This document shows, piece after piece, positions 39,381 to 60,578 of a stretch of DNA of 64,000 bases; position 1 is the first letter of the stretch; each line of letters starts with the position of its first letter. The position numbers and the translations under genes are program-made. Source of the DNA: Limihaloglobus sulfuriphilus (GTDB lineage: Bacteria > Planctomycetota > Phycisphaerae > Sedimentisphaerales > Sedimentisphaeraceae); the NCBI RefSeq assembly GCF_001999965.1, contig NZ_CP019646.1, positions 682,001 through 746,000 of the forward strand. Reading direction: 5' to 3'. The notes beneath the pieces are model-generated. The model was not told the origin of the DNA. It saw only the letters and a list, made by a program, of their open reading frames with translations, and did no database searches.

Positions 39381-40565
39381 ATGATAGAAATACTTGAAAA
39401 CTTAGAAATAGACTCGGGACGCGGCAAGGGTAGGCCTATTTACGAGCAGGTTGCCGACCATATAAGAGAGAAGATTTGTTCTTCTAATATTTCTGCGGGT
39501 GTAAGACTGCCCGCCATTTCCCAGATGATGCGGGAGTGGAATTTAGCTTACCCGACAATCAAGTCCGCTCTGGAGATTCTCGAGAGTGAAAACATACTTC
39601 GATGTGAACAGGGCCGCGGCAAGGGCCCGCTTATACTCAAACCGGTTGAGAAAAAGAGTTATCGCTTTGCCTTTCACAGGTGGAAAAACGAGGCTCAGTT
39701 TATCAATCTGGAAAAAGGAATCAAGGCCTTTGTCGAACAGAATAACCATGAATTGAAAGTTATAGATGCTTACATTGCTAATTCCTGTATGCCGGATGTA
39801 CTTACATCGGAATCAGAGAATTTTGACGGGTTGATTGTCTATCCTATTGCCACTGAAGAATATATCAAGGCTATCAAAGATATTCAGGCTCTGGGTGTAA
39901 AGGTTGTTTTTGTAGATAGGTTTATTGAAGGGCTGTCAATCGGCTCTGCAAGTGCGGATAATTTTTCTGGCGGCTATACGGCCACTACTCATCTTATCGA
40001 AACTCATAACTGTCCGGTCTATTATTTTGGTAATACCCTTCAGCCTACATCCGCGCAAATGCGTTATCAAGGCTGGTATCAGGCCATGAAAGAGCATTTT
40101 ACGCACCTTGATTTTAACAGTGATTATCTCTGGGAGATTTTCGCAGATGAAAGCCGGTACAACTGGTGTGATACCAACGACTGGGAGCAGCCGGCGTATG
40201 AAATGGCTCTAAAGTCTCTGAGTAAAGTCGATTCTGAAAAGTGCTGCGTCTTCTGTTCGAATGATGATGCCGCCAGGATCATGACCGAAGCGGCAAAGGA
40301 TAATAACCGCGTGCCCGGCGTTGATTTTTTCGTGATTGGTTTTGGAGATAAACCCTTCTGCGAGAGGCTTGATGTGCCTTTGAGCAGTGTTGCCCAGTTT
40401 GACCAGGAGGTGGGATACGCCGCCGCTGAATTGCTTGAAAGTATTATCGAGAGACCCTCACTTTCTAATCGAATGATAAAGAGGATAGTGCCGGTTGAGC
40501 TTAAGATAAGAGCCAGCAGTATCAAAAAAGTTGGCAGTGAGGAGCTGTCATTAAAAAGTATTTAG
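39381..40565 (+). CDS. GntR-type regulator with a LacI-like sugar-binding domain
   Basis: Residues 1-80 form a GntR winged helix (GRPIYEQVADHIREKI...AGVRLPAISQMMREWNLAYPTIKSALEILESENILRCEQGRG). Residues 95-390 resemble the periplasmic-binding-protein-like sensor domain of LacI-family regulators (FDGLIVYPI, VVFVDRFIEGLSIGSASADNFSGGYTATTHLIE, CVFCSNDDAARIMTEAA, plus a VIGFGD-like end). The combination is common in planctomycete and lentisphaeral sugar-locus regulators. GAGGG lies before the ATG. It heads the accessory locus and is followed after 23 bases by the first exported protein gene, so it probably controls this locus in response to a sugar released from the target polysaccharide (inference). 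Confidence 0.88.
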   Translation: MIEILENLEIDSGRGKGRPIYEQVADHIREKICSSNISAGVRLPAISQMMREWNLAYPTIKSALEILESENILRCEQGRGKGPLILKPVEKKSYRFAFHRWKNEAQFINLEKGIKAFVEQNNHELKVIDAYIANSCMPDVLTSESENFDGLIVYPIATEEYIKAIKDIQALGVKVVFVDRFIEGLSIGSASADNFSGGYTATTHLIETHNCPVYYFGNTLQPTSAQMRYQGWYQAMKEHFTHLDFNSDYLWEIFADESRYNWCDTNDWEQPAYEMALKSLSKVDSEKCCVFCSNDDAARIMTEAAKDNNRVPGVDFFVIGFGDKPFCERLDVPLSSVAQFDQEVGYAAAELLESIIERPSLSNRMIKRIVPVELKIRASSIKKVGSEELSLKSI

Positions 40566-40588
40566 TTTAAAAGTTGGTGAAACTAACC

Positions 40589-42637
40589 ATGAAGCAATTT
40601 TATTTGTTCAGCAGTGTTTTAATAATTATTTCTACAACCCTCTGTTCCGGGGTGGAGTTTGCTAACGGTGACTTTGAAAACGGGAACCTGTCCGGCTGGC
40701 GTACATATTTCAACGGTGTTGCAGAGGGCAGTTACCAGATATCCCAGGACAGCTATCAGGGCTCTTACGCCGTTCATATGGATATCACAAATGCCGGAGT
40801 TAATAACTCCCAGGGTAATTCTGCTCTGGATACCTGGAGTTCTCCGATTGAGCTTTATGGAGCTAAAGAGGTTTTACTAACCTTTGCCGCCAAGAATCTC
40901 TCTTCAGACAGCTCCCGTCTGCATGTAAAGATGCTGGAATTCAGTGCCGCTAATACCAATTTAGGGGCAACCCGGGAGTGGTTTTTCACGCCGTCGGGCA
41001 ACTATCAGCAATACAGCTGTTTTTATTCGTTAAAGAATTCTCAAGCCAGCAAAATTGTTATCAGCTTTCGCGTTGCCGGCCCAGACAGCATAAACCTTGC
41101 CGTCGGCAGTTATATGCTCGACGCCGTAAGTTTGGATAATTGCGAAAGAATCTACAACGGCGGGTTTGAAGACGGGCTGCGTTTTTGGAGATGGTACGCG
41201 GTTTCCGGCGCAGAAGGCAGTGCGACGGTATCGCCCGATGCTTTCAGCGGCAGCAGTGCGGCAAGGCTGCAAGTTACCGCGGGCGGGGGCAATCACGGTT
41301 TGGACAGAGAGGAGTTTAAGGTTCCCGTATATTCTGGTGAGACAATAATTTTAGAATTCGCTGCCAAGAAGATTTCTTCCGGCAGTGAGCAGCTTCGGGT
41401 GACATTTTCCGAGCATAACGGCAGCAATACCCAGGATTTTCTCGGTGTTCAGGGGCACAGGTACTTTGATGTGGGCGAAGAATATTCTAAATATATTTGC
41501 AGCTACACGGCAGCCGACAGCGATGCCGCGGCGCTGAACATCATATTTAAGTCGTGGGACGATACAGCCTCAACGGGTGAGTTTTTGATAGACGATGTGA
41601 GAATTGTTACTGATATTCTGCCTAACAGCGGCTTTGAAAGCGATTTAGAGCTGTGGAGATGTTATTCTACAGCCGGCAGCACAGCCGATTGCTCGATAGA
41701 GACTGCTGATGTTGTTGAAGGGCAGAAGGCGGCAAGGTTTGAGGTTACGCAGGCCTCAAACGATAGCGATCACGGGCTGGACAGGTTTGACTATATGCCG
41801 AAGGTTCAGTACGGCGACAAGATTCTTTTTAGCTTTTATGCTAAAGAGCCTGTTGCACAGCAGAGAAGTTTGATGCTCAGTGTAACAGAATTCGATTCGC
41901 AGGGTAATGCCGTTGAAAATGGACATGAATTTTTTAGTCCTGAAAGCTCTTACCGCCAATTTACATACTACTATGATGTTAAGGGCTTTGATACCCGCAG
42001 TGTAAATCTCTGTTTTAAGATTTATACCGAAGACGGCATCGAGAAAGCCGACGGAGTGTTTTTGATAGACGGTGTAAATATGAGTTTTGGCAATGGAAAA
42101 GAGCTCTCCGATTTGAATTATGACGGGATTACCGACCAGGCTGATTTAAGGCTTTTTGTCGAAAAATGGACTGACAGAGAAGAAACCTCCCTTACTCTGG
42201 CTCTCTCTGATGTTGATGATTCTATTGCAAACCAGGCAAGCTGCAGCCTTGATGGAAGTTTCGATTTGAGCGGGTTTGACGGTTTGAATATTGGGTTGGC
42301 GGCTTCGAGTTCCGCTGAAGGTTTACTTGTAATGGCACTAAAAGAGCAGGATGCGGTCCTGGTTGAATACGAGTTTAACATGGCAGATTTTGACGCGGCG
42401 GCCGGTTTAGTCTATGCCGATTTGCATAACCTTCTATTGGGCAGCAGAGAAGTCTTAGTAAATGTTGATAATATACTATTCGAGCTTTTCCCCGAGACAA
42501 GCTCACAGGTTTATCTTGATGTCAACAGTATTGAGGCTGTTGTGTGCGAGTGTCAACAGATCAGAGGCGATTTCAATTTAGATTATCGGGTGGATCTTCT
42601 GGATTTAAAAATAATAGCAGAGCATTGGGTTAAATAA
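40589..42637 (+). CDS. Exported protein with three CBM-like modules and dockerin-like repeats
   Basis: An N-terminal signal peptide (MKQFYLFSSVLIIISTTLCSG) is followed by three copies of a roughly 155-residue module at about 21-185, 187-335 and 340-500. Each begins with a NGGFE-type block and W-R-Y, and copies 2 and 3 carry HGLDR. Copy 1 has a diverged LDTW at that place. The fold is probably a beta-sandwich of the CBM4/9 kind, from the alternating beta pattern and the final FLIDDV strand. A DLNYDGITDQADLRLFVEKW repeat, a short beta domain and a second GDFNLDYRVDLLDLKIIAEHW repeat end the chain; these are dockerin-like EF-hand units. No catalytic domain is visible. The start is ATG 40589; an upstream in-frame TTG at 40574 lacks a signal peptide look. 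Confidence 0.8.
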   Translation: MKQFYLFSSVLIIISTTLCSGVEFANGDFENGNLSGWRTYFNGVAEGSYQISQDSYQGSYAVHMDITNAGVNNSQGNSALDTWSSPIELYGAKEVLLTFAAKNLSSDSSRLHVKMLEFSAANTNLGATREWFFTPSGNYQQYSCFYSLKNSQASKIVISFRVAGPDSINLAVGSYMLDAVSLDNCERIYNGGFEDGLRFWRWYAVSGAEGSATVSPDAFSGSSAARLQVTAGGGNHGLDREEFKVPVYSGETIILEFAAKKISSGSEQLRVTFSEHNGSNTQDFLGVQGHRYFDVGEEYSKYICSYTAADSDAAALNIIFKSWDDTASTGEFLIDDVRIVTDILPNSGFESDLELWRCYSTAGSTADCSIETADVVEGQKAARFEVTQASNDSDHGLDRFDYMPKVQYGDKILFSFYAKEPVAQQRSLMLSVTEFDSQGNAVENGHEFFSPESSYRQFTYYYDVKGFDTRSVNLCFKIYTEDGIEKADGVFLIDGVNMSFGNGKELSDLNYDGITDQADLRLFVEKWTDREETSLTLALSDVDDSIANQASCSLDGSFDLSGFDGLNIGLAASSSAEGLLVMALKEQDAVLVEYEFNMADFDAAAGLVYADLHNLLLGSREVLVNVDNILFELFPETSSQVYLDVNSIEAVVCECQQIRGDFNLDYRVDLLDLKIIAEHWVK

Positions 42638-42651
42638 CAGGAAGTTAAGAC

Positions 42652-44814
42652 ATGGAAAACTTATCAAGAAGAAAATTTATAAAATACAGCGGACTTGCAG
42701 GCGGAGCGTTTTTGGTCGGCGGCTGCGGGTTTGCCAGGGCGCAAACAAGCAAAGCTGCCTCTGGTGATGTTCTGAAGGGTTTTATAGTCTCTGACGCCCA
42801 TTTCGGGTGGGTGCACGATATGCAGCCCACGCATCAGCAGCAGCGTGATGCCATGAATGTTATTCTGACAAGATTTCCGGACCTGGACGTTTTCATAGAT
42901 ACCGGTGATGCCCACCACAGCGGCCTCAGCGGCAGCAGTGAGCTCGAGGCCAGGGGCGGCTGGACGGATATAATCGCCAACGGCAGCGGCAGGCTTCCAT
43001 TCTATTATGTGATGGGTAATCATGAGGCAATACCAAATCCCGGCTTGGATAGCGAGCAGAAAGTTCAGGAGTTTGGCAGTGTTACCTGCCGGCCGTATTA
43101 CAGCTTTGACATAAAAAACATTCACTTTGTGTCTTTGCCCGAGCTTGAAACGCCGGTGTTTGTAAATAAAGAATCGATTGACTGGCTCAAGCTCGATCTC
43201 GAACTGAATAAAGATAAGACCACAATACTGCTTTCCCACAATAACATTAAAGGCACAACTACTCTGCTCGGAGACCAGCCCGGTTACAGGGGCATAACCA
43301 ACAGTCAGCAGATTATGGATATTATATCCGGCTACCCTAATGTTATCTCCTGGATGCAGGGTCACAACCATACCTATGAAGTTGTCAAAAAGGATAACAT
43401 GCTGTTTGTCTCAAACGGACGTATAGGCGGGTTCATTCCCGGCGCAGTCTGGGGCCTTGGACACAGGGAACTGGGCGGCATCTATTTTGAGGTTCTCGGC
43501 GATAAATTTATAGTAAAAAGTTTCAGCGCGAGCTCCAATAGTTTCCATGAAGAGCTGGGCTTCGAGCTGGTTTCCGGTGAGTTAGAGAAACAGACAACGC
43601 TTGATTCTTCCGCGAAATCTGTATTTAGTTACGGTGTAGGCGATATGAACAACGGCCAGAAGATTCCCGTTTTCAGTCACCATACAGGTTTGGGTAAAAA
43701 AGAAATCTTTGCCGCGGCCGGCAGCGAAGAGATAAATGATGACCCTGAATTTACACTCTTCGAGCACCGCCATGATAACGATTCAAATCAGCAGTGGATG
43801 CTTATGGGGGCGTCGGTAGGTTATCCCCGCTACTTTGAGCCTGAGAATACTCTCTGGCAATGGGAAGATCCAGGTATAAGGCTTCTGGCGCAGGAGAGCC
43901 TTGCCCAGTCAACCGACATATCGGTCCCGGAATACGCCAGCGGCAGAAACGCCTATTATAAATGTTCGCCGGGCAGGAAGTATAAGACCGAAATTACAAT
44001 AAACAGCCCCAGCGGCGGTCAAAATATTGAGATGCTCCTCGAGGTCAGGGACAGCAACGGAAACTCACTTAACCAGGTTACAAGCGAGCAGGTCAGTGTA
44101 GAAGCCGGCACTAATAAGTACAGCCGTGAGTTTTACATTCCGCATCTGCCCGATACAGATAATATCTATTATGATAACAGCAGCGATACAACTGTTCAGG
44201 TACTGGCCAAGGCGAAAATCAGCAATCTCTTCGAAGATGTTGTTGTCAGCAAGTTCGCCCTTTACCACAGCGAACTGGCGGCGGCGGAAAATCCCAAGAT
44301 TACAGTAGATGGCAAACAGCATCTTCGCTGCGGCAAGTATGGCGCCGGTGAAGTTATAAGCCTGGGCAGCAGTGACAATAAAGAGGCAAGGGCGGTTGTT
44401 GAATGCAGCACCGGCGGCACCGGCAGGCTAAGCTGGCTGATCCGTCAGGATAACGTTGACTGGCAGTTTAGAAACGCGGCGGTCAGTGACCTTGGTCAGT
44501 ATCTTCAGGTAGATTCTGTGAGAAGCCCGTGGACTCCTGATAAAGAGGTTGTTATCGCTCCCTTTGGCGGCAGCAGCGGCGGGCCGTTTGTGCATAAGAC
44601 ACGAAAAATCAATCAATTCAACATCTACCCGCTTAACAGAGGCAACGAACTGCTGAAAATTGACGTTCAAAACTTTGACAGCGACGCAGACATTAAAATT
44701 ATTTGTTCAGCAAGCCCCGCAGCAGTAACCGGCTCAAGTCAATGGAGCTACGAAAGCGGTGTTTTAACTGTCAACGTTGAGTCTGAGGGTGTTATCACAG
44801 CAGACTGGGCCTGA
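42652..44814 (+). CDS. Tat-exported calcineurin-like metallophosphoesterase
   Basis: SRRKFIKYSGLAGGAFLVGGC is a twin-arginine signal with a possible lipobox Cys25. Residues 42-310 form a calcineurin-like phosphoesterase with the five metal-ligand motifs visible: SDAHFG, DTGDAHH, MGNHEA, LLSHNN and MQGHNHTYE. The remaining 400 residues are beta-rich and unassigned, perhaps carbohydrate-binding or sandwich domains. A phosphatase or phosphodiesterase acting outside the cytoplasm on phosphorylated glycans or released nucleotides is plausible. AGGA lies before the ATG, 14 bases after the preceding stop, so it is co-transcribed with the upstream genes. The next gene is separated by a leader hairpin. 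Confidence 0.85.
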   Translation: MENLSRRKFIKYSGLAGGAFLVGGCGFARAQTSKAASGDVLKGFIVSDAHFGWVHDMQPTHQQQRDAMNVILTRFPDLDVFIDTGDAHHSGLSGSSELEARGGWTDIIANGSGRLPFYYVMGNHEAIPNPGLDSEQKVQEFGSVTCRPYYSFDIKNIHFVSLPELETPVFVNKESIDWLKLDLELNKDKTTILLSHNNIKGTTTLLGDQPGYRGITNSQQIMDIISGYPNVISWMQGHNHTYEVVKKDNMLFVSNGRIGGFIPGAVWGLGHRELGGIYFEVLGDKFIVKSFSASSNSFHEELGFELVSGELEKQTTLDSSAKSVFSYGVGDMNNGQKIPVFSHHTGLGKKEIFAAAGSEEINDDPEFTLFEHRHDNDSNQQWMLMGASVGYPRYFEPENTLWQWEDPGIRLLAQESLAQSTDISVPEYASGRNAYYKCSPGRKYKTEITINSPSGGQNIEMLLEVRDSNGNSLNQVTSEQVSVEAGTNKYSREFYIPHLPDTDNIYYDNSSDTTVQVLAKAKISNLFEDVVVSKFALYHSELAAAENPKITVDGKQHLRCGKYGAGEVISLGSSDNKEARAVVECSTGGTGRLSWLIRQDNVDWQFRNAAVSDLGQYLQVDSVRSPWTPDKEVVIAPFGGSSGGPFVHKTRKINQFNIYPLNRGNELLKIDVQNFDSDADIKIICSASPAAVTGSSQWSYESGVLTVNVESEGVITADWA

Positions 44815-44827
44815 TATACGTTGCGAT

Positions 44828-44883
44828 ATGAATAAATGTTTTTTAAAAAGTTTTGCCGCACCGCGTTGGGCGGCAATTTTTAA
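44828..44883 (+). repeat. Leader hairpin repeat, copy 1 (encloses a 15-codon frame)
   Basis: TTGCCGC (44853-44859) and GCGGCAA (44870-44876) form a perfect seven-pair stem with loop ACCGCGTTGG. It is followed by five Ts, which could terminate transcription from the phosphoesterase gene. A short frame at 44836-44883 encodes MFFKKFCRTALGGNF. The element differs from copy 3 by one loop base over about 49 positions. It sits just upstream of the 44905 gene. Confidence 0.75.
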
Positions 44884-44904
44884 CAATGTTTAATGAAAGT
44901 TAGC

Positions 44905-47214
44905 ATGAGAATCAGTAGAGTAATACAGTTTTTAATTTTAACAACAGTATTTGCAGCGACCAGCGCCGTCGCTGTAGAATTAACTAATGGTGGTTTTGAA
45001 GATGGCGATACCGATTGGAGAGCTTACGCAGCAAACGGAGCAGTTGGAAACTTCGGTTTGACTACTGATTCTTATGAGGGCAGCAATGCGTTTTCATTTG
45101 AAATTACAGATTCTCCTGCCGGCTCAGACCATGGGCTGGATAGAATGGGCAGCCGTTTTTCGGCTTTTGCCGGCGATGATTTAGAGATATCGGCAGCGGT
45201 TAAGAAGGTTTCGAGCGATAATACAGTTCTCAGGGTGTATGTCAGCGAATGGGATGATGGCGGCAGCTATCTGGGTGTAAGCTCTTTCTATGCACTCGAT
45301 AGCGCAGAGGGCAACTATACGCTTAACACGTTTAATTATTCGGTAACAAACCCCGATACTACAGAATGCGATATAAAGTTCAAAATATTTGACGAAAATG
45401 GGCTAAAATCTTCCGGACATTATTATATAGACGCAGTTGATGTTCTCAATCAGGAACCGCCGGTATATACTGGCGAACTTTTGTACAACGGTATTCGTCT
45501 GCAGGAAGAATGGCCGCCTAATAATATTGACCCGAACGACGAGTCTCCTATGGCTGTACCGTATTTAATGTATCCGCCCGAAGTAATACCGATAGATATA
45601 GGCAGACAGCTGTTTTTTGACGATTTTTTAATTGAGAACACTGATTTGGTGCGAACATTCCACAAGCCTGAAAAATACAAAGGAAACCCCGTCTTAAAAC
45701 CGGAAACAGAGATTGAAATCAACGAGATAAGAACCAATTCTCTTGAGAACGGCGAGCTTGGCAATGCTGCCGCTGCTCCTAAAAGTGGTGGTGTATGGTG
45801 GGATCCAGACGACGAATTGTTCAAAATGTGGTATGAAGCGGGCTGGCTTGGAACAATAGCTTTGGCAACGAGTCAAGACGGGATTAACTGGGAACGTCCG
45901 CATTTTGACATAAATCCCGGCACAAATCAGGTCTTGCCGCTGGATTTAATCCCTGACTCATGGACGGTTGCCCGAAATTGGGACGCTCAAGACCCGCAGG
46001 AAAAATGGACTTTGTTTCTGAGTCCTCCTGCTCCAGTTGAGGGTGGGCCATGGTCTTTGACCTCTCCGGATGGGATACATTGGAATCAGCGGGTACAGAC
46101 CGGCCCGGCCGGAGACCGAAGCACACACTTTTACAATCCATTTAGAAAAAAATGGGTTTATAGTCTAAGAGCTGCTTTTGATGGCCGCGGCAGAGCAAGG
46201 CATTATTACGAATGCGATGATTTCATGCAAGACGCTCAATGGACCAACAGTGATAAGGTTGTCTGGCTTATGACTGATGAAGAAGACCCGTATGATTATC
46301 TTACACAATTCAAACCTCAGCTGTACAACTTTGATGCGGTAGCGTATGAAAGCATTATGTTGGGATTCGCCGAGATTTTACAAGGTCCGGCAAATCCAGA
46401 TTGTGCAAAAGTGGGGTTGCCGAAGATAACCGAGCTAATGTTCTCCTACAGCCGAGACGGTTTCCACTGGCATCGTCCTGACAGACGCGCGCATATCCAG
46501 GCCGAGAGAAGCGATGTCTGGGATAGAGGTTATGTGCAGTCGGCAGGTAATATCTGCCTTGTTCGCGGCGACAAGTTATGGTTCTATTATTCGGCTTTCC
46601 GCGGCAATGAGTCAAAAAAAGGTAACAGCTACGGACTTGTTAATAACGGTATGTACGATAACGGCTCCACAGGGGTAGCTTTTATGCGAAGAGACGGTTT
46701 TGCCTCTCTTGATGCAGGCAGCCAGGCGGGAAATTTGACGACTCGCAAAGTAGAGTTTTCGGGCAACTATCTGTTTGTAAACGTAGATACCCGCAATGGA
46801 AAAATCCGCGCTGAAATTCAGGACGTAGATGGCAGCCCGATAGAGCCGTTTACGTTGGAAAACAGTATTCCATTTACCGGTGACAGCACTATCGAGATGC
46901 TTAATTGGTCAGACGGCAGCGATTTATCTGAACTAGCCGGTACGCCCGTTAGACTTCATTTTGAACTTACAAACGGTTCTATTTATTCGTTCTGGATAAG
47001 CAAAGACTCCACAGGCAGAAGCGACGGTTACGTTGCAGGCGGCGGAGCGGGCTTTACCGGAGCGACGGATACCGTTGGCATCTCCGCTTATGAGGCTGAG
47101 TTAGATATAGCCGAAAATTCAGATTGGCAGAAGCCCAATGCTGACCTTAATGATGACGGTGAAGTGAATTTAATGGATTTTGCATTTTTAGCAGAACAAT
47201 GGTTAGTTAAGTAA
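44905..47214 (+). CDS. Exported five-bladed beta-propeller (GH32/43-like) protein with CBM-like module and dockerin-like end
   Basis: A signal peptide (VIQFLILTTVFAATSAVAV) precedes one module of the shared type at about 25-185 (NGGFEDGDTDWRAYA, GSDHGLDR). A domain of about 500 residues follows with propeller-like blade motifs such as WWDPDDELFKMWYEAGW and ATSQDGINWERP, typical of the GH32/GH43/GH117 beta-fructosidase-type superfamily. I cannot identify catalytic acids with certainty. The C-terminus has one EF-hand-like unit, DLNDDGEVNLMDFAFLAEQW. I place the start at ATG 44905 by comparison with the paralogues; an upstream in-frame ATG at 44893 adds four residues. Probable role: cleavage or binding of an anionic or sulfated glycan outside the cell. 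Confidence 0.82.
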   Translation: MRISRVIQFLILTTVFAATSAVAVELTNGGFEDGDTDWRAYAANGAVGNFGLTTDSYEGSNAFSFEITDSPAGSDHGLDRMGSRFSAFAGDDLEISAAVKKVSSDNTVLRVYVSEWDDGGSYLGVSSFYALDSAEGNYTLNTFNYSVTNPDTTECDIKFKIFDENGLKSSGHYYIDAVDVLNQEPPVYTGELLYNGIRLQEEWPPNNIDPNDESPMAVPYLMYPPEVIPIDIGRQLFFDDFLIENTDLVRTFHKPEKYKGNPVLKPETEIEINEIRTNSLENGELGNAAAAPKSGGVWWDPDDELFKMWYEAGWLGTIALATSQDGINWERPHFDINPGTNQVLPLDLIPDSWTVARNWDAQDPQEKWTLFLSPPAPVEGGPWSLTSPDGIHWNQRVQTGPAGDRSTHFYNPFRKKWVYSLRAAFDGRGRARHYYECDDFMQDAQWTNSDKVVWLMTDEEDPYDYLTQFKPQLYNFDAVAYESIMLGFAEILQGPANPDCAKVGLPKITELMFSYSRDGFHWHRPDRRAHIQAERSDVWDRGYVQSAGNICLVRGDKLWFYYSAFRGNESKKGNSYGLVNNGMYDNGSTGVAFMRRDGFASLDAGSQAGNLTTRKVEFSGNYLFVNVDTRNGKIRAEIQDVDGSPIEPFTLENSIPFTGDSTIEMLNWSDGSDLSELAGTPVRLHFELTNGSIYSFWISKDSTGRSDGYVAGGGAGFTGATDTVGISAYEAELDIAENSDWQKPNADLNDDGEVNLMDFAFLAEQWLVK

Positions 47215-47260
47215 CTAATTGAAGTATGTTTTATTATATAAATAAAAATCAAATTATAGG

Positions 47261-47308
47261 GAAATGTTTAAAAAGTTTTGCCGCACCGCGTTGGGCGGCA
47301 ATTGTTAA
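47261..47308 (+). repeat. Leader hairpin repeat, copy 2 (encloses a 14-codon frame)
   Basis: The same stem TTGCCGC (47278-47284) and GCGGCAA (47295-47301) with the same loop as copy 1. The short frame at 47264-47308 encodes MFKKFCRTALGGNC; one TTT codon is missing relative to the other copies, an in-frame difference. There is no T-run after the stem, so a terminator role is unlikely for this copy. Confidence 0.75.
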
Positions 47309-47332
47309 TATTGTTTTTTTATGGAGATTATC

Positions 47333-47938
47333 ATGAGATTGAATGGTGCAATGTATGTTTTTATTTTAACAGCAGTATCTTTAACGGCCGCTGTCGGCGC
47401 TGCCGAACTTACTAATGGCGGATTTGAAGATGGTGATACAGACTGGCGGGCTTATGCGGCAAACGGAGCTGTTGGAAACTTCGGTCTGACGACTGATGCT
47501 TATGAGGGTAATCATGCGTTTTCATTTGAAATTACAGCTTCTCCCGCCGGCTCAGACCATGGGCTGGATAGATGGAACAGCCGTTTTTCGGCTTTTACGG
47601 ATGATGTTTTAGAGATATCAGCAGCGATTAAGAAGGTTTCAAGCGATAATACAGTTCTCAGGGTGTATGTCAGCGAATGGGATTCTGACGGCTATTTGGG
47701 TGAAAGCTCTTTCTATACACTCGATAGCACAGAGGGCAGCTATACGCTTAACACGTTTAATTATTCTGTAATACACTCCGACACTACAGAATGCGACATA
47801 AAGTTCAAAATTTTTGACGAAAATGGTGAAAAGTCCACCGGACATTATTATATAGATGCAGTAACCGTCCCTGAGCCTGCAACGGCGATTATACTTATTG
47901 CCGGCTGCCTTACGGCTTTTTCTCGCCAAAAAAAGTAA
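47333..47938 (+). CDS. Single CBM-like module protein with PEP-CTERM tail
   Basis: Signal peptide (MYVFILTAVSLTAAVGAAE), one shared module (about 22-180: NGGFEDGDTDWRAYA, GSDHGLDRWNSRF, a KKVSSDNTVLRVYVSEWD block) and a PEP-CTERM sorting tail: VPEPATAIILIAGCLTAFSRQKK-type Pro-Glu-Pro, hydrophobic helix and basic end. PEP-CTERM tails are processed by an exosortase. The module is very close in nucleotide sequence to that of the preceding gene, so this looks like a partial copy that gained a different C-terminus. GGAG seven bases before ATG 47333 fixes the start. No catalytic domain is present, so it may be a surface-held glycan-binding protein. Confidence 0.85.
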   Translation: MRLNGAMYVFILTAVSLTAAVGAAELTNGGFEDGDTDWRAYAANGAVGNFGLTTDAYEGNHAFSFEITASPAGSDHGLDRWNSRFSAFTDDVLEISAAIKKVSSDNTVLRVYVSEWDSDGYLGESSFYTLDSTEGSYTLNTFNYSVIHSDTTECDIKFKIFDENGEKSTGHYYIDAVTVPEPATAIILIAGCLTAFSRQKK

Positions 47939-47947
47939 ATACCGGCT

Positions 47948-48003
47948 ATGAATAAATGTTTTTTAAAAAGTTTTGCCGCACAGCGTTGGGCGGCAATTGT
48001 TAA
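47948..48003 (+). repeat. Leader hairpin repeat, copy 3 (encloses a 15-codon frame)
   Basis: Stem TTGCCGC (47973-47979) and GCGGCAA (47990-47996), with loop ACAGCGTTGG. The short frame at 47956-48003 encodes MFFKKFCRTALGGNC. The only change from copy 1 within about 49 bases is one C-to-A, which falls in the loop and is synonymous (Thr) in the short frame. Confidence 0.75.
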
Positions 48004-48026
48004 CAGTGTTTTTTATGGAGGTTACC

Positions 48027-50300
48027 ATGAGAACCAGTAGAGTAATACAGTTTTTAATTTTAATCGCAGTATTTTTGGCAGGCGGTGCCGGTGCTGTAGA
48101 AATCACCAACGGTGATTTTGAGGACGGTTTTACCGATTGGCGGTATTTTGCCGGCAATGGAGCAGAAGCGAATTTTACAATTGTCAATGATGCCTATACA
48201 GGCAGCAGTGCTGCTTCAATCGAATTCACAGATGTTCTGCAGGGTGATGCCGGTTTGGACAGGTTTAATGCAGAGATACCAGTATCTACCGGAGATGTAT
48301 TGAAAGTCAGATTCGCCGCCAAGAAAATAGGTTCAGCAAACACCAGGCTGAAGGTTTCGGTGGTGAACAAAGACGCAAACAACAGCTTTTTCGGTGTTCA
48401 GGACAACTTTTTCTTCAGACCGGTAGAAGGCAGTTATACTGAATACGAGGCTTATGCATTTATTACAGATCCCCGGACAGAATTTATCAATCTTAGTTTC
48501 AGGATTGTTGATGATTGGGGTTTACTGTATGAAGGGCAATACTATATTGACAGTGTAAGTATTACTAAAGCAGACCTGGTGTATAACGGCGGTTTCGAAG
48601 AAGGTGATTTCGGCTGGCGGGCTTATGCAGCAGGCGGAGCGGAAGGAATCTTCGGCCTGACTACGGATGCTTATGAGGGCAGCAATGCCTTTTCATTTGA
48701 GATTACCGTAGGCGGCGGCGACCATGGGCTGGATAGATGGGACAGCCGTTTCCCGGGTTCTGCGGGCGATCTTTTAGAGATATCATCAGCGGTTAAGAAG
48801 GTCTCGAGCGATAATACGTTCCTAAGGCTTATTATCGCTGAGTTTGACGCAGACGGAGCTAGATGCGACTTTGCTCTATATGACCTTGATGTCGAAGAAG
48901 GCGTTTATAAGACAAACAAGATTTACCATCAGATAACCCATCCTGATACAGTCAAATGTAATCCAATCTTCAGGATATTTGACGAAACTGGACAAAAATC
49001 TGCCGGCCACTATCTTGTTGACGCGGTAGATGTTCAAAAGCCGTTGATGGGTTTCTTTAACGGCGGCTTTGAAGAAGACTGGACCGGCTGGCGTCACTAC
49101 GCCGCAACAGGTACAACGGCTGAATTCTCGATAAGCAGCGATGCCTACGAGGGAGATAAGGCTGCATTGATGGATATTACGAGCGTATCTGCCGGCAGTG
49201 ACCACGGTTTAGACCGTATCAACTCTAAACTTGCTGTTTCACCGGGAGATAAAATCAGGCTCTCTTTCGCTGCTAAGAACGTTTCCGGAGATGATACCCT
49301 GCTTATGCTGGCTATGCATGAAACAGATGAGGAGCAGAATTTCATATCCTATGCCAGAGAGACGGCTTTCTTTGATCCCGGCAGCAGTTACGGAGAGTTT
49401 GATTTCTACTACACAATTCAGGATCCATCGGCTGCCTACGTCAATATAGGGTTTACAATCTATAACGGCGACGGCTCGGTTAAATCAGCAGGAACCTATT
49501 TGATCGATGCTGTTAAGCTGTATCAAGGCAATGGGCTGAATCCGGTTGACCTGAATTATGACCTTTCAGTAAACGCTGATGATATGTATGTCTTTACAGA
49601 TGATTGGCTAAATGCTGATATAGCCGCTGAAGGCGAAGTAGTTACAGTCGATGATTTCGAAGGATATGCCGACCAGGCAGCTCTCGAATCAAAATGGCAG
49701 GAGTTCTACTGGGCCGGATTCAACGGCTCCAATACCAGCAGCACCGTAACACTGCTTACCGATCCTGTTGATGTTTATGAAGGCACCAGCGCCATGAGAT
49801 GGGACTACGATGCTGATGATACCAGCGGTAACGATCAGGATTACACAGATATCGTGCTTACGCTTGATGAAACTATGGATCTGACAAACGGCAGTGCCAT
49901 AAAGATTTATCTCAACCGTCACCCAGGCAACAGTGAAGAGAACCTTCTGTATATCAAGCTGTTTGAAGGCGCGGTTGACGTGAGCAACATTGTCGATCAA
50001 ATCTGGCTGGAACGTTCAGAGGGCTCAACCTACGCTCCTACAGGCTGGACTGAGTGGAATGCAAGCCTGGATAACCTTCATACAGGCGATAAATCTGCAC
50101 TGGATGCGGTTTCCGCTATTCTGATTGGATGCTGGAGCCCCGCGGCTGACGGTACCAGCGGAAGCGGCACTATAGATATCGACGGAATCAGAGTTAAATA
50201 CGAAGACACTTGCGGCACTGTCCACAGAGGAGACTTTAACGGGGATTGCGTCGTAGATATGCTCGACTTTGCCGGTTTTGCAGCCAGCTGGCTCGAATAA
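48027..50300 (+). CDS. Exported protein with three CBM-like modules, a beta-sandwich and two dockerin-like repeats
   Basis: Signal peptide (VIQFLILIAVFLAGGAGA), then three shared modules at about 24-180, 186-335 and 338-500. Copies 1-3 carry DAGLDR, DHGLDR and DHGLDR. A DLNYDLSVNADDMYVFTDDWL unit follows, then a domain of about 200 residues beginning VTVDDFEGYADQAALESKWQ that resembles CIA30/CBM-type beta-sandwiches, and a final GDFNGDCVVDMLDFAGFAASW dockerin-like unit. No catalytic residues are recognised. GGAGG lies before ATG 48027. The layout parallels the 40589 gene, so these may be paralogous scaffold or binding proteins of the same locus. Confidence 0.8.
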   Translation: MRTSRVIQFLILIAVFLAGGAGAVEITNGDFEDGFTDWRYFAGNGAEANFTIVNDAYTGSSAASIEFTDVLQGDAGLDRFNAEIPVSTGDVLKVRFAAKKIGSANTRLKVSVVNKDANNSFFGVQDNFFFRPVEGSYTEYEAYAFITDPRTEFINLSFRIVDDWGLLYEGQYYIDSVSITKADLVYNGGFEEGDFGWRAYAAGGAEGIFGLTTDAYEGSNAFSFEITVGGGDHGLDRWDSRFPGSAGDLLEISSAVKKVSSDNTFLRLIIAEFDADGARCDFALYDLDVEEGVYKTNKIYHQITHPDTVKCNPIFRIFDETGQKSAGHYLVDAVDVQKPLMGFFNGGFEEDWTGWRHYAATGTTAEFSISSDAYEGDKAALMDITSVSAGSDHGLDRINSKLAVSPGDKIRLSFAAKNVSGDDTLLMLAMHETDEEQNFISYARETAFFDPGSSYGEFDFYYTIQDPSAAYVNIGFTIYNGDGSVKSAGTYLIDAVKLYQGNGLNPVDLNYDLSVNADDMYVFTDDWLNADIAAEGEVVTVDDFEGYADQAALESKWQEFYWAGFNGSNTSSTVTLLTDPVDVYEGTSAMRWDYDADDTSGNDQDYTDIVLTLDETMDLTNGSAIKIYLNRHPGNSEENLLYIKLFEGAVDVSNIVDQIWLERSEGSTYAPTGWTEWNASLDNLHTGDKSALDAVSAILIGCWSPAADGTSGSGTIDIDGIRVKYEDTCGTVHRGDFNGDCVVDMLDFAGFAASWLE

Positions 50301-50324
50301 GCACTATAATTATAACGATTATCC

Positions 50325-50350
50325 GCCGGCGCCGCGGCAGCGGCGCCGGC
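50325..50350 (+). terminator. Strong GC hairpin after the CBM-like cluster
   Basis: GCCGGCGCCGC (50325-50335) and GCGGCGCCGGC (50340-50350) form a perfect 11-pair stem with a four-base loop, 25 bases after the stop. The following bases (ATCTAAATTTTATT) are only moderately T-rich, so termination may be partial. It separates the CBM-like genes from the GxGYxYP genes. Confidence 0.55.
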
Positions 50351-50403
50351 ATCTAAATTTTATTAAGACAGCATAAATATTTGAGCTGTTCTTTAACTAA
50401 GAA

Positions 50404-53400
50404 ATGTTGCTATATATGCTAAAAAAATACCAGGTTTTGATACTTATTCTCCTTTTTGCCGCTGTTACAGGTTTAAGTCAGCAGCGGCCAACTATTTATA
50501 AGTGGGATTTGCGTTTTGCCAATACCTGGTCAAGGGATTTGCAGTACGACCTGTTTCACTCCGCAGTTGCTCTGCAGGGGCTTGCAAACAGAGACGCACC
50601 CCGCGTGTTTCTCGTATTTGAAGAGGATGATCAGCTCTGGCTCGATCGGCTTGTAGAGCCGGGCGGGCTTTGTGAAGGCTGGAATATTGAGACGATTAAC
50701 AACATTTCCGAATATATCAATATGTTCGCAGGTTTGGCCCAGGGTGTTGTGCTTTATGACAGCTCGCCAGAGACGGGCGTTATATCAACCAGTCTCGTCG
50801 CGACCTCTGCCGCCGCGGCCCGGGACTGCATTGCGCTTAGAAATGACCCTGACAGCGGCGTTTATAAAATGTTTGTGACTAATTCCAGCGGTGCTCGGCT
50901 TCCGATAGTTCTGGATTTGAGCGGCAAATTCACCGGCAGCGGCACAATCTGGCAAACAAGCCGCGAATCTACTGGCAGCGCCAAGTGCGATGCCTATATC
51001 TGGCTGGTAGAGAATTACATCAAAACAGGGCTGTTAGATACTACTAACATCTCTTATACACTGGATTTATGGGGAATGAAAGACGAAGTGGCTCTCGACC
51101 ATACTCAGCTGCGCAACCTTGATTACGCATTCAAGAAAAAGGCCGTGTGTTTCGAGCTCTCGCCCTGGCCTGATGAAGTGCCAAACGACGACCCGACTCA
51201 ACCGCTGGGAACAGATTTTGAGACTTTTAAGACTATTCTCGATGAGTGCAATATACAGAATAACTACTCTGAGATGATAAAGTTCTGCGGTTTTACTAAC
51301 TGGGCATACAAATATACTGCCCGCGCGGGAGGAAGCCACGAAGGGGTTAGTACCGAATGGCAAACAGTGAGGCTTTTGTCAGCTTATAATACCTATATGG
51401 AGGCAGAAGCCCTGGGCCGTAATTTCATCAGCAACACATCTTTTTATAATGCTTTGAAACCTGCTCTTATGCAGAGGCGGTATATTCAGAATCCGCCGCC
51501 GTCATATCAGGAATTAGTTGATAAGGGGTTTATCGATTCGAGCGGCAATGTTGTAGAAAATAATTATGTAATGATATATATGGGTGACTATGATCAGGCC
51601 GCGTGGACACTTTACTGGCTTGCTGGAGACAGGTATGACGACCCTGCACGCGGCGTTGTTCCGTGCAGCTGGGCTCCTACGCCAAACACCTCCGACAGGA
51701 TCGGTGTAGCTTATGATTATATGTACCGCAATAAAAGCGATAAAGACTATTTCATTGCCGGCGATTCCGGAGCCGGTTATGTTAATCCAACCCAGCTTTA
51801 CGGCATAAGGTGGCCCTCTGGATACCCGGACGGGCGGGATATATGGAAAAAACACTGCCAAAAGTACTATCGTATGTTTGATTATTCGATAACAGGCTGG
51901 CTGCTTAATTCCGGCAGCGGTGATTTAAGCCTGACTGATGCTGATACTTATAAGCAATTCAGCGGCGACGGGATAGGCTTTAACAGAGATTTGGACGATC
52001 CTGTTTTGAGCGGCAATGTAGCCCTGATTGAGAGAAATGGGCCGGATCTTTACCGGGATACCATAGAAATTTCGAAATTGGGTTTACAGAGCGGCAGCGG
52101 CGTCAACTTTTCGTGGTACAGAGCAATAAATATTTACCCCCAGAATCTTAAAGACCTTGAAGAAGAGTGCCTTGAGCTTGGCTATGATTATAAATTTGTT
52201 GATGCTTATACGTTTTATTATTTGTTAAGGTATTATTTAGGCGGCAATAATAATCACCGAGTTTGCTGGAGGGGTGATGATATTCCAGATATTTTAGAAA
52301 CCTCTCAAAGCCGACAGGTTCAACTTACGGTCAGAAATGACGGCTGGGATATCTGGAGCCGTCAAGACGGTTATTCATTGGTATATGCGATTGTCCCGGG
52401 CGGGCAGGAGTTAACGGCTGATGATTATAATCTGGATAAGAGAGTTTCTTTGGGTGACTCGGAGGCTGTTTCAACCGGCCAGATCGCAAATTTTGAGGTT
52501 TCTCTGGATATGCCCGAGATCGAAGGCGAATACGATTTATATTTTGATATGATTAAATTCGCAGATGCCAACCTGCTGACGAATCCGAGCTTTGAATCAG
52601 ATTTTGCTGATTGGCGGACATTTGCCGTAAGCGGCTCAGAAGGAGAGTTCAGTATCAGCGGTGACAGCAGTGATGGAGATAAGGCAGTTTTGATGAATAT
52701 TACCAGCGGCTCTCAGGGCGACCATGCTTTAGATCGGGACAGAAACAGGATTGCAGTTGAGTATGGAAACGCATTTAGTGTTTCGTTTGACAGTAAAAAG
52801 GCCGCGGCAGGCGAAACAAAAATACGTCTCACTGTGTCAGAGTTCAATGCAAACGGTGACTATCTGGCTAAATACGGGGCCTTTGACTTCGATCCCGACC
52901 AGAGTCAATACATGCAATGCAATTGTGAATATGAAATTCAGGATGAAAATACTAAATACATCAATATAGGTTTCAGGGTCGTTAATTACAACGGGGCAAA
53001 AACCGCCGGCAGTTATTTGATAGATAGTGTCTCTATTACAGATTCAGATTTAGATAATTCCTGCCTTGCTTTCTCGTCATATAACAATCTGCCCTGGAAA
53101 ACAACTTTGCAGGTTGTCGATGATGTTTACAGCGTTGATACAGACAATGACGGTATCAGTGATGTTGTAGAGTTAGAACACGGTTTGCTGTCCTGGTATC
53201 CCCAAGACGGTGTCTGCGGAGATGTGGGATATCTACAGGCAGATACATCCGGAGATGCAGGGGTGCCGGACTGCTACGTAGATGTTAACGACTTGATAGA
53301 TCTGGCCTCAATGTGGCTTACGGGATCAGCGGGTTATGACGATTTCACTGTACTTGCCAGACAATGGCTCTGGTGTAATGACCCTCAGGCAATAGAGTGT

Positions 53401-53412
53401 TGGCAGAATTAG
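50404..53412 (+). CDS. GxGYxYP-family putative glycoside hydrolase, copy 1
   Basis: This 1002-residue exported protein has a signal peptide (YQVLILILLFAAVTGLSQQ). Its main part matches the GxGYxYP group, named for a motif that here reads GAGYVNP at 456-462. Other family blocks seen are SAVALQGLANRDAPRVFL, KCDAYIWLVENY and YMGDYDQAAWTLYWLAGDRY. The group is predicted to be glycosidase-like but I know of no proven reaction. One CBM-like module follows at about 722-880 (FESDFADWRTFAVSG, DHALDR), then a thrombospondin-3-like calcium motif (DTDNDGISDVVELEHG) near 912 and a dockerin-like end. It shares long nucleotide blocks with the next gene, 14 bases away. Confidence 0.85.
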   Translation: MLLYMLKKYQVLILILLFAAVTGLSQQRPTIYKWDLRFANTWSRDLQYDLFHSAVALQGLANRDAPRVFLVFEEDDQLWLDRLVEPGGLCEGWNIETINNISEYINMFAGLAQGVVLYDSSPETGVISTSLVATSAAAARDCIALRNDPDSGVYKMFVTNSSGARLPIVLDLSGKFTGSGTIWQTSRESTGSAKCDAYIWLVENYIKTGLLDTTNISYTLDLWGMKDEVALDHTQLRNLDYAFKKKAVCFELSPWPDEVPNDDPTQPLGTDFETFKTILDECNIQNNYSEMIKFCGFTNWAYKYTARAGGSHEGVSTEWQTVRLLSAYNTYMEAEALGRNFISNTSFYNALKPALMQRRYIQNPPPSYQELVDKGFIDSSGNVVENNYVMIYMGDYDQAAWTLYWLAGDRYDDPARGVVPCSWAPTPNTSDRIGVAYDYMYRNKSDKDYFIAGDSGAGYVNPTQLYGIRWPSGYPDGRDIWKKHCQKYYRMFDYSITGWLLNSGSGDLSLTDADTYKQFSGDGIGFNRDLDDPVLSGNVALIERNGPDLYRDTIEISKLGLQSGSGVNFSWYRAINIYPQNLKDLEEECLELGYDYKFVDAYTFYYLLRYYLGGNNNHRVCWRGDDIPDILETSQSRQVQLTVRNDGWDIWSRQDGYSLVYAIVPGGQELTADDYNLDKRVSLGDSEAVSTGQIANFEVSLDMPEIEGEYDLYFDMIKFADANLLTNPSFESDFADWRTFAVSGSEGEFSISGDSSDGDKAVLMNITSGSQGDHALDRDRNRIAVEYGNAFSVSFDSKKAAAGETKIRLTVSEFNANGDYLAKYGAFDFDPDQSQYMQCNCEYEIQDENTKYINIGFRVVNYNGAKTAGSYLIDSVSITDSDLDNSCLAFSSYNNLPWKTTLQVVDDVYSVDTDNDGISDVVELEHGLLSWYPQDGVCGDVGYLQADTSGDAGVPDCYVDVNDLIDLASMWLTGSAGYDDFTVLARQWLWCNDPQAIECWQN

Positions 53413-53426
53413 TATAAAAGGTAAAA

Positions 53427-56400
53427 ATGTACCGTAACAAACTGGTAAAATGCATATACATACTGTTTTTAGCTTTTTCTGCACAATTTTTGCAGGCTGC
53501 GGCTAAGCCGACTATTTATAAATGGGATATGAGTTTCTCAGATGGTTGGTCAAAATCTTTGCAGTATGACCTGTTTCATTCGGCAGTGGCGCTTCAGGGG
53601 CTTGCCAACAGGGAAGCACCGAGAGTTTTTCTGGTTTTTGACGAGAGAGACCAGCTCTGGCTTGATCGGCTTGTTGAACCGGGCGGGCTGTGTGAAGGCT
53701 GGAATATTGAGACGATCAACAATATATCCGAGTATATCGATATGTTCGCAGGTCTTGCCCGGGGAGTTGTGCTTTATGACAGCTCTCCTGAGACTGGAGT
53801 TATATCAACGAGTCTTGCCGCGACCTCTGCCGCCGCGGCCCGGGACTGCATTGCGCTTAGAAATGACCCGGACAGCGGCGTTTATAAGATGTTTGTGACT
53901 AATTCCAGCGGTGCCCGGCTGCCGATAGTTCTCGATTTGAGCGGCAAATTCACCGGCAGCGGCACAATCTGGCAGACCGGCCGCGAATCTACCGGCAGCG
54001 CCAAGTGTGATGCCTACATCTGGCTGGTAGAGAATTATATCAAGACAGGGATGTTAGACACCACTAACATCTCTTATACACTGGACTTGTGGGGTATGAA
54101 AGATGAAGTGGACATGAACCATACCCAGCTGCGGAACCTTGATTATGCGTTTAAGAAAAAGGCCGTATGTTTTGAGCTTTCGCCATGGGCTGATGAGGCG
54201 GCGACCGATGATCCGACTCAGCCGCTGGGAACTGACTTTGAGACTTTTAAGACTATTCTCGATGAGTGCAATATACAGAATAACTACTCTGAGATGATAA
54301 AGTTCTGCGGTTTCACTAACTGGGCCCGCAAATATACCGACAATGTGGGCGGGATTCATACCGGCGTTGAAACGGAATGGCAGCTTGTACGGCTACTCAG
54401 CGGATACAACTCGTATCAGGAAGCCGACGCGCCGGGGCTTAATTTCGTCAGTAACACATCTTTTTATAACGCGTTGAAGCCGGCACTCGAAGAGAGGGAG
54501 TATCTGCAGAATTCGCCGCCGTCTTATCAGGATTTGGTTGAGAGAGGTTTTATTGATTCGAGCGGCAATGTTGTGGATAATAACTATATCTTGATATATA
54601 TGGGTGATTACGATCAGGCTTCCTGGATGCTGTACTGGCTTGCAGGCGAGAGGTATGACGACTCGGCCCGCGGCGAAGTTCCGTGCTGCTGGGCTCCTAC
54701 ACCAAATACTTCCGACAGGATCAGCGTTGCTTATGACTATGTCTTTCGCAATAAGAGCGACAAGGACTATTTTGTCGGCGGCAACTCCGGCGCCGGATAT
54801 CTCCACCCCGGTCAGCTCTATGGTGAGAGATGGCCCTCTGGTTACGCAGACGCAAGGGATGTCTGGAAAAGGCACTGCCAAAAGTATTACCGCATGTTTG
54901 ACTATTCCATAAGTTCAAGAATTCAAAACGGCAGCAGCGGCGAACTCGAGCTTGTCGATTGTGAGGTTTATAAGAGTTTCAGCGGCGACGGCATGGCTGT
55001 CAATATGCGTGATAACATTGCGGCACCTATGCTGAGCACTAATATTCCAATAATTAAAACGACTCCGACAATTTTGTACACCGACACAATCAACGCTGCC
55101 AAGCTGGGCCTTACAAGCGGCAGCGGCGTGAATTTTTCGTTGTACAGAGCAATAAATATTTATCCCCAGGATCTCAAAGACCTTGAGGAAGAATGCCGCT
55201 TGCTTGGCAACGATTACAGATTTTTAGATGCTTATAGCTTTTACTATCTGTTAAGGCACCATCTGGGCGGCTATAATACATATAGAGCTTCCTGGGCAGG
55301 TTGTGATGTTCCTGGTATTTTAGAGACTTCTCAAAACCTTCAGGTACAGGTTGCCGTCAGAAATGACGGCTGGGATCTCTGGAGCCGCCAAGACGGTTAC
55401 GGCTTAATGTATGCTATTGTTCCCAGCGGAGAGGAAGTAACTGCTGATGATTTCAGGCTTGATAAAAGGGTGCTTTTGAGTTCATCAGAGACAGTAGCGA
55501 CAGGAGAAACGGCTGATTTTTCAATTTCAATTGAGATGCCGAATCTCGAGGGTGAATATGATTTGTATTTCGACATGGTAGGTTATTCTGAACAGAATCT
55601 GCTGACAAATCCCGGTTTTGAATCTGATTTTGAGGGTTGGCGCACATTCGCGGTAAACGGCTCGGAGGCAGAATTCAGCATAAGCAATGATAGTTATGAA
55701 GGAGACAAGGCGGCTTTAATGAACGTTTTGGCTGCCGCTGAAGGTGACCATGCGATTGACCGCTATATAGATAAGATCGATGCCGAGTACGGAAACAGTT
55801 ATGAAGTTTCTTTCGCAGCAAAAAAGGTTGGAATAAGTGATACCAGGCTTCGGCTTACAGTTTCAGAGCGTGATATAAACGGGGCGTTTTTAGGTAAATC
55901 TCAAACGTATGATTTTAATCCGAATCAAAGTGAATATGACTTGTTCAGTGTGGATTATGCGATTCAGGATTTAAACACAAAATACATCAATGCAGCTTTC
56001 AGAGTTGTTGACAGCAGCGGAGCCAAGACTGCGGGCAGCTGCTTAATAGATAATGTCGCTGTGATAAACTTAGATGAAATAAATAAATATACGTCTTTTA
56101 TGCAGCGAAACAATCTGCCGTACAAGATTGATTTGAAGGTCGTTGACGATGTTTACAGTGTTGATACAGACAACGACGGCATAAGCGATGTTGTAGAATT
56201 AGAGCACGGATTACTGCCCTGGTATCCTCATGACGGCGTTTGCGGAGATGTTGGATATCTCCAGGCTGATAAGTCGGGCAAAACAGGGGCTCCGGACTGC
56301 TTCGTAGATGTTTACGACTTGGCAGATTTAGCATCTAATTGGCTCAGCGTATCTGAGGATTATCGCGATTTCGCAATACTTGCCATGCAGTGGTTATGGT

Positions 56401-56432
56401 GCAACGATCCTCAGACAATAGAATGCTGGTAA
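53427..56432 (+). CDS. GxGYxYP-family putative glycoside hydrolase, copy 2
   Basis: Tandem paralogue of the preceding gene, 1001 residues with the same domain order: signal peptide (YILFLAFSAQFLQA), GxGYxYP region with GAGYLHP at 455-461, one CBM-like module at about 722-880 (DHAIDR), the DTDNDGISDVVELEHG calcium motif and a dockerin-like end. Long stretches are nearly identical in DNA to copy 1 (for example around 50930-51130 versus 53950-54150), while the parts near residues 490-560 differ, so substrate pockets may have diverged. AAAGG precedes the ATG. Confidence 0.85.
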   Translation: MYRNKLVKCIYILFLAFSAQFLQAAAKPTIYKWDMSFSDGWSKSLQYDLFHSAVALQGLANREAPRVFLVFDERDQLWLDRLVEPGGLCEGWNIETINNISEYIDMFAGLARGVVLYDSSPETGVISTSLAATSAAAARDCIALRNDPDSGVYKMFVTNSSGARLPIVLDLSGKFTGSGTIWQTGRESTGSAKCDAYIWLVENYIKTGMLDTTNISYTLDLWGMKDEVDMNHTQLRNLDYAFKKKAVCFELSPWADEAATDDPTQPLGTDFETFKTILDECNIQNNYSEMIKFCGFTNWARKYTDNVGGIHTGVETEWQLVRLLSGYNSYQEADAPGLNFVSNTSFYNALKPALEEREYLQNSPPSYQDLVERGFIDSSGNVVDNNYILIYMGDYDQASWMLYWLAGERYDDSARGEVPCCWAPTPNTSDRISVAYDYVFRNKSDKDYFVGGNSGAGYLHPGQLYGERWPSGYADARDVWKRHCQKYYRMFDYSISSRIQNGSSGELELVDCEVYKSFSGDGMAVNMRDNIAAPMLSTNIPIIKTTPTILYTDTINAAKLGLTSGSGVNFSLYRAINIYPQDLKDLEEECRLLGNDYRFLDAYSFYYLLRHHLGGYNTYRASWAGCDVPGILETSQNLQVQVAVRNDGWDLWSRQDGYGLMYAIVPSGEEVTADDFRLDKRVLLSSSETVATGETADFSISIEMPNLEGEYDLYFDMVGYSEQNLLTNPGFESDFEGWRTFAVNGSEAEFSISNDSYEGDKAALMNVLAAAEGDHAIDRYIDKIDAEYGNSYEVSFAAKKVGISDTRLRLTVSERDINGAFLGKSQTYDFNPNQSEYDLFSVDYAIQDLNTKYINAAFRVVDSSGAKTAGSCLIDNVAVINLDEINKYTSFMQRNNLPYKIDLKVVDDVYSVDTDNDGISDVVELEHGLLPWYPHDGVCGDVGYLQADKSGKTGAPDCFVDVYDLADLASNWLSVSEDYRDFAILAMQWLWCNDPQTIECW

Positions 56433-58054: not shown

Positions 58055-58068
58055 TATAGAGGTGCCAA

Positions 58069-58917: not shown

Positions 58918-59002
58918 CAGCTCAACTGTGAGGCCGGCGGCAGTAAATCAGTTGAGCATTGCAGAGATTCTCTTTAAAACATATAGATTGAAAGGCTAAT
59001 CA

Positions 59003-60547: not shown

Positions 60548-60578
60548 GGTTAGTAATTAAATTCGAGGAATATTTAGT

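Follow-up and report, generated by a model that had tools for sequence, protein, structure and literature searches.

In the accessible part of a 2014 study, the GxGYxYP proteins are described as putative glycoside hydrolases, by structural prediction only, that associate with varied carbohydrate-binding domains, including the carbohydrate-binding module (CBM) families CBM6, CBM32 and others (PMC4071793). The same part of the text names no CBM4-type module with these enzymes, and 'Planctomyc' does not occur in it (PMC4071793). The window examined here is a 64,000-nucleotide stretch of the planctomycete Limihaloglobus sulfuriphilus, positions 682001-746000 of its 3.87-Mb single-contig genome, and its translation contains a cluster of GxGYxYP proteins together with ten copies of one ~160-residue module in six secreted proteins, designated A to F. 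We know of no substrate for the GxGYxYP hydrolases. The predicted structure is a β-jellyroll of the CBM_4_9 type, within which the module forms a divergent and uncharacterised subfamily. The module is probably an accessory CBM that brings the secreted proteins of the locus to their substrate. CBM-like jellyrolls are a known kind of module; the novelty is confined to the subfamily and its unusual signature.

The copies lie on the forward strand and span 40652-56099, with three in A, one each in B and C, three in D, and one each in E and F. Five carry the signature DHGLDR: A3 (41609-42109), B1 (44974-45465), C1 (47402-47881), D2 (48573-49049) and D3 (49047-49553). C1 is 83% identical to B1. The variants are NHGLDR in A2 (41144-41611), the best Pfam CBM_4_9 match in the window, DAGLDR in D1 (48096-48575), DHALDR in E1 (52561-53073) and DHAIDR in F1 (55587-56099). 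A1 (40652-41146) keeps WR and reads NSALDT. A prior inspection of the DNA, the sequence-only reading, had listed ten copies in six proteins, the variants DAGLDR, DHALDR and DHAIDR and the loss of the signature in A1, and all are present as described. Each copy was searched with a profile trained without the protein under test, and 200 composition shuffles per copy served as the control. Every copy was recovered at 107-221 bits (E values 1e-31 to 1e-65) while the shuffles reached at most 11.1 bits. Chance similarity was therefore rejected, and the repeat is far beyond chance.

The alignment of the ten copies has 15 invariant columns, including N5, F8, E9, W15, R16, D32, G36, A39, D56, K77 and D153 in B1 numbering. 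The set was then enlarged to 28 strong modules, comprising the window copies, copies elsewhere in the genome and those of two distant genomes. All 28 keep the W and R of W-R and the final D of LD; the H and terminal R of DHGLDR are variable. The signature proper is W-R together with D-x-x-[LFVI]-D and not the whole of DHGLDR. The sequence-only reading is otherwise correct in substance. Its second motif, KK-S-S-x-x-T-x-L-R-V, is complete only in B/C/D2-like copies, and the first K alone is near-invariant. Weaker sister modules in multi-module proteins of three genomes (G348, G339 and G247) retain W-R and D-x-x-[LFV]-D. CBM_4_9-like homologues that lack R after W (L042 twice, L047, L049, L055, L043 and phage L072) also lack the D. 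Because R and D are gained or lost together, a direct interaction or shared site of R16 and D56 is suggested, from cases of joint loss that come from related sequences and are not independent events.

AlphaFold was applied to the ten window copies, and the B1 model is a ten-stranded jellyroll with a mean predicted local distance difference test (pLDDT) score of 94.8 and a predicted template modelling score of 0.90. This model has the β-jellyroll fold of CBM_4_9 (CBM4/9/16/22). Foldseek matched it to CBM-type jellyrolls and phage tailspike domains with E values of 1e-7 to 1e-6, and the VIA-align Z scores were 17.0 for tailspike C-terminal domains, 15.3 for CBM16, 14.8 for CBM22, and 15.5 and 13.8 for hyaluronan- and alginate-binding modules. 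CBM4-2 of the Rhodothermus marinus xylanase (2y64, 2y6j) has a like fold (Z 16.8, root mean square deviation 2.1 over 145 residues) at only 14% identity. The porphyran-binding CBM 8xmz, a sulfated-glycan binder, scored 15.9 over 132 residues at 15% identity. CBM11 of Lic26A-Cel5E (1v0a, 6r3m) had a Z of 14.3. Sequence identity between the module and its structural neighbours is 8-18%, and a profile search of PDB chains returned nothing significant; the best E values, 0.05-0.06, belong to CBM4 of laminarinase 16A and to CBM11 (E 0.06). The highest structural score, 17.0, is that of the C-terminal domain of a Klebsiella phage K2-2-type depolymerase tailspike (8iqe), and tail fibres related to these tailspikes are 30% identical to the module over 107 residues (tblastn, E 2e-4). 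The special kinship to phage tailspikes suggested by these two results was ruled out, since the phage domain has the W and neither WR nor LD; it shares the superfamily and not the subfamily.

The Pfam profile PF02018 (curated cut-off 25.9 bits) matched protein A at 58.5 bits and a paralogous five-module protein encoded elsewhere in the genome at 80.2 bits. E (24.0) and F (22.2) fell just short, C scored 12.8, and B and D had no listed match. Membership holds for the group via protein A and not copy by copy. Of the single modules, 13/23 matched PF02018 at E ≤ 0.01. The module resembles CBM_4_9 in its N-x-F-E start, the W, the D-x-V end, its length and the predicted jellyroll. It differs in adding the W-R / D-x-x-L-D signature and in lacking an aromatic residue in the β-4 motif. 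The earlier guess at a CBM4/9-type fold is supported by the model and, weakly to moderately, by Pfam. By sequence, none of the CBM families of known ligand claims the copies, so the assignment that was to have removed their novelty did not occur.

E (50404-53412, forward strand) is a GxGYxYP putative glycoside hydrolase that carries its module within an immunoglobulin (Ig)-like domain, and F (53427-56432, forward strand) is its 76% identical paralogue with the same insertion. E and F were aligned with a module-free paralogue from a second locus (M_gx) and with the orthologue of G348 (G348_gx). The alignment shows the module cleanly inserted into an Ig-like hairpin: YFDM-[module]-NNLPWK stands in E and F against YYDMVRDG-x-TWF..NNIEWK, with DG-x-TWF at the site of the module in M_gx and G348_gx. 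The insertion in E and F shows independent reuse of the module. In other loci it was reused independently in a sulfatase fusion and in PEP-CTERM and dockerin-like proteins. Its partners across the genome are GxGYxYP hydrolases, a sulfatase, dockerin-like tails and PEP-CTERM.

The whole genome has at least 23 copies in three loci, at least 13 of them outside the window in two loci. Outside the window there are 11 strong copies: a near-identical copy of A (L052:7979-10042) has three, a single protein at 3.856 Mb has five, and the remaining three are at 3.11 Mb. The genome also has two divergent PEP-CTERM copies and two weak copies. The window locus and that of the five-module paralogue have in common the order regulator, multi-module protein, GxGYxYP, pseudopilin and sulfatase. 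Only three of the 397 sampled genomes of the class have strong modules, namely this genome, G348 and G339, and a sample of 392 genomes across the phylum yielded no further strong modules. The order to which G348 belongs adds only a sister-type module, in G247. Searches of a named genome collection (with B1 and alignment A4), of viral contigs and of plasmids gave no confirmed relative, by a method that needs conserved peptides and may omit the genome itself, so absence is unproven. In G348, a genome of a distant family, a GxGYxYP enzyme with 51% identity lies no more than about 3 kb from the modules. The subclade of E-like GxGYxYP enzymes (at least 47% identity; next best 39%) is present in 6/397 genomes. 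Among module-free loci of this subclade, read by eye, those of G005 and G374 both keep the pseudopilin and dockerin-tailed proteins, and that of G374 also keeps the regulator and a PEP-CTERM protein. The module is an accessory added in some lineages to a conserved locus. The G348 and G339 loci also encode DUF5010 / GH99-like enzymes (L064:12648-15557 and L066:1-2211, the latter assigned by eye) with a sister-type module in the same protein.

We propose that the locus works as one conserved polysaccharide-degradation system of GxGYxYP hydrolase, sulfatases, regulator and pseudopilin. Where a module is fused to an enzyme or inserted in it, it would direct catalysis to the substrate, single copies with PEP-CTERM would display the module at the cell surface, and dockerin-tailed multi-module proteins would add avidity. 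A sulfated glycan is the most plausible substrate, because the sulfatases have intact formylglycine motifs and the habitat reported for sulfatase-rich relatives fits such a glycan (PMC6388578). The sequence-only reading had argued for one common ligand from recurrence beside different catalytic partners. The sulfatase fusion, the PEP-CTERM and dockerin-like proteins and the E/F insertion speak for this, but the partners were overstated, because only B, E and F have a putative catalytic domain (GxGYxYP in E and F) and 3/6 module proteins, A, C and D, have none, and much of the reuse is by duplication. On the proposed function, the polysaccharide systems of anaerobic planctomycetes, about which little is known, would gain a probable CBM subfamily. 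The module co-occurs with one GxGYxYP subclade and can be expressed alone, which offers a practical route to the substrate of these enzymes by glycan array.

The copies, the predicted fold, the lineage, the E/F insertion and the link by gene neighbourhood are shown here, whereas carbohydrate binding, the class of ligand and a role for the R...D pair close to the canonical strands of the cleft are inferred. Several points weigh against an accessory CBM. The jellyroll is also found in non-CBM domains among the structural matches (meprin, Cry and Vip3 proteins, cyclases), so the fold alone is no proof of binding. The sole residue-level guide to the cleft is a weak CBM11 hidden Markov model alignment (E 0.056), which puts WR-x-Y on W19-G-S-Y22 and DHGL on D51-G52-Y53-W54 of CBM11; Y22 and Y53 are presumably cleft tyrosines. 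In favour of the proposal, the module is present in 2/6 genomes with an E-like enzyme versus 1/391 others (Fisher p = 6e-4), but the test is biased because the module was defined from a genome that it includes, and without that genome the counts are 1/5 versus 1/391. Finally, 4/6 genomes with an E-like enzyme lack the module, which is therefore dispensable for the core function.

A bolder form of the proposal is tentative. Modules of the W-R / D-x-x-L-D type, together with the sister types, might constitute a new CBM family, in which a coupled arginine-aspartate cleft site replaces the aromatic platform and recognises a specific charged glycan, sulfated or uronate, that is the GxGYxYP substrate. 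If so, the family would provide a handle on the substrate of these uncharacterised hydrolases.

A role in self-recognition or assembly is unlikely. The module would then bind the cell's own surface polymer, another module or a protein, and so anchor the enzymes and PEP-CTERM proteins on the cell or link them to one another. In its favour, wherever strong copies occur, the distant genomes included, the locus has a module protein with a PEP-CTERM-type tail; half of the window's module proteins are non-catalytic; and the genome has at least 26 dockerin matches as well as one protein with two cohesins. Against this, the closest structural neighbours of known function bind glycans, and the modules adjoin degradative enzymes and are inserted in them. 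A ligand-free structural spacer of the CBM_4_9 or choice-of-anchor type, with R...D as a buried, fold-stabilising salt bridge, is improbable: R16 and D56 are either both invariant or both lost, as a structural pair would be, and the NCBIfam choice-of-anchor J profile (NF038128, cut-off 30 bits) gave protein A a sub-threshold 27.5 bits and the other proteins no match, but paralogous loci retain the different positional classes of module, and selective reuse with one enzyme class is unexpected for a mere spacer.

Much of the module reuse is due to gene duplication (B/C/D2, E and F, and D versus the five-module paralogue). B, C and D2 have a leader and signal peptide in common and are young duplicates. 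D1, D2 and D3 pair in order with modules 1, 2 and 5 of the five-module protein; D2 also clusters with B1/C1, and D3 with A3. Support in the module tree is uneven: the D2 group has 96/96 and the D3 group 92/92, but D1 with module 1 only 85/82. Many forks of the tree are weak, and the joining of A1/P1-P2 may be a long-branch artefact. Free shuffling of modules was ruled out for D, which tracks modules 1, 2 and 5 of its paralogue in order. A 4.3-kb segment with protein A and a twin-arginine (TAT)-signal metallophosphoesterase (window 40492-44815) is duplicated at 3.84 Mb (L052:7899-12217; 89% DNA identity). This second copy has PEP-CTERM module genes on its flanks and an ISL3-family transposase gene (L052:5486-6532) nearby.

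The genes listed in this paragraph are on the forward strand. The regulator of the locus (39381-40565) has a GntR-type helix-turn-helix and a LacI-type sensor; its counterpart stands first in the paralogous locus, and it is present in related loci too. Protein A (40574-42637, alternative start 40589) has a signal peptide, three modules and two dockerin-like DxNxDG repeats ~110 residues apart, and protein B (44893-47214) has a module, a ~540-residue domain and a dockerin-like repeat. This domain (residues ~192-735) had no match in Pfam or in PDB sequences. It contains the motif IGRQLFFDDFLIEN, its single-sequence AlphaFold model (pLDDT 30) is too low for use, and by eye it is possibly a β-propeller hydrolase. 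Protein C (47321-47938) consists of a signal peptide, a single module and PEP-CTERM (TIGR02595, 18.9 bits, cut-off 16). Protein D (47973-50300, likely start 48027) has three modules, a dockerin-like repeat, a CBM11-like domain assigned by eye without a Pfam match, and a second dockerin-like repeat. Pfam searches found no catalytic domain in A or D. The downstream genes (56465-62414) encode three sulfatases with C-x-P-x-R formylglycine motifs and an N_methyl pseudopilin-like protein, and the third GxGYxYP hydrolase of the cluster (62488-64000) extends beyond the window end.

Dockerin type I scores (cut-off 22.9 bits) were below threshold for A (13.3), B (15.8) and D (10.6), and above it for the five-module paralogue (26.3). 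Outside the window, a 2069-residue frame has two cohesin matches (G000:C1:1003495-1004697), and with the dockerins of this genome it is possible that a small cellulosome-like system exists in a planctomycete. A ~50-base leader with a GCCGC...GCGGC hairpin is repeated just 5' of the starts of B, C and D (44827-44878, 47267-47305 and 47947-47998) and may be a duplicated terminator or RNA-processing element. In D, the CBM11-like domain separates two dockerin-like EF-hand repeats. A similar CBM11-like domain with a dockerin-like tail (L094:2-1825) adjoins the E-like GxGYxYP gene of the module-free genome G005.

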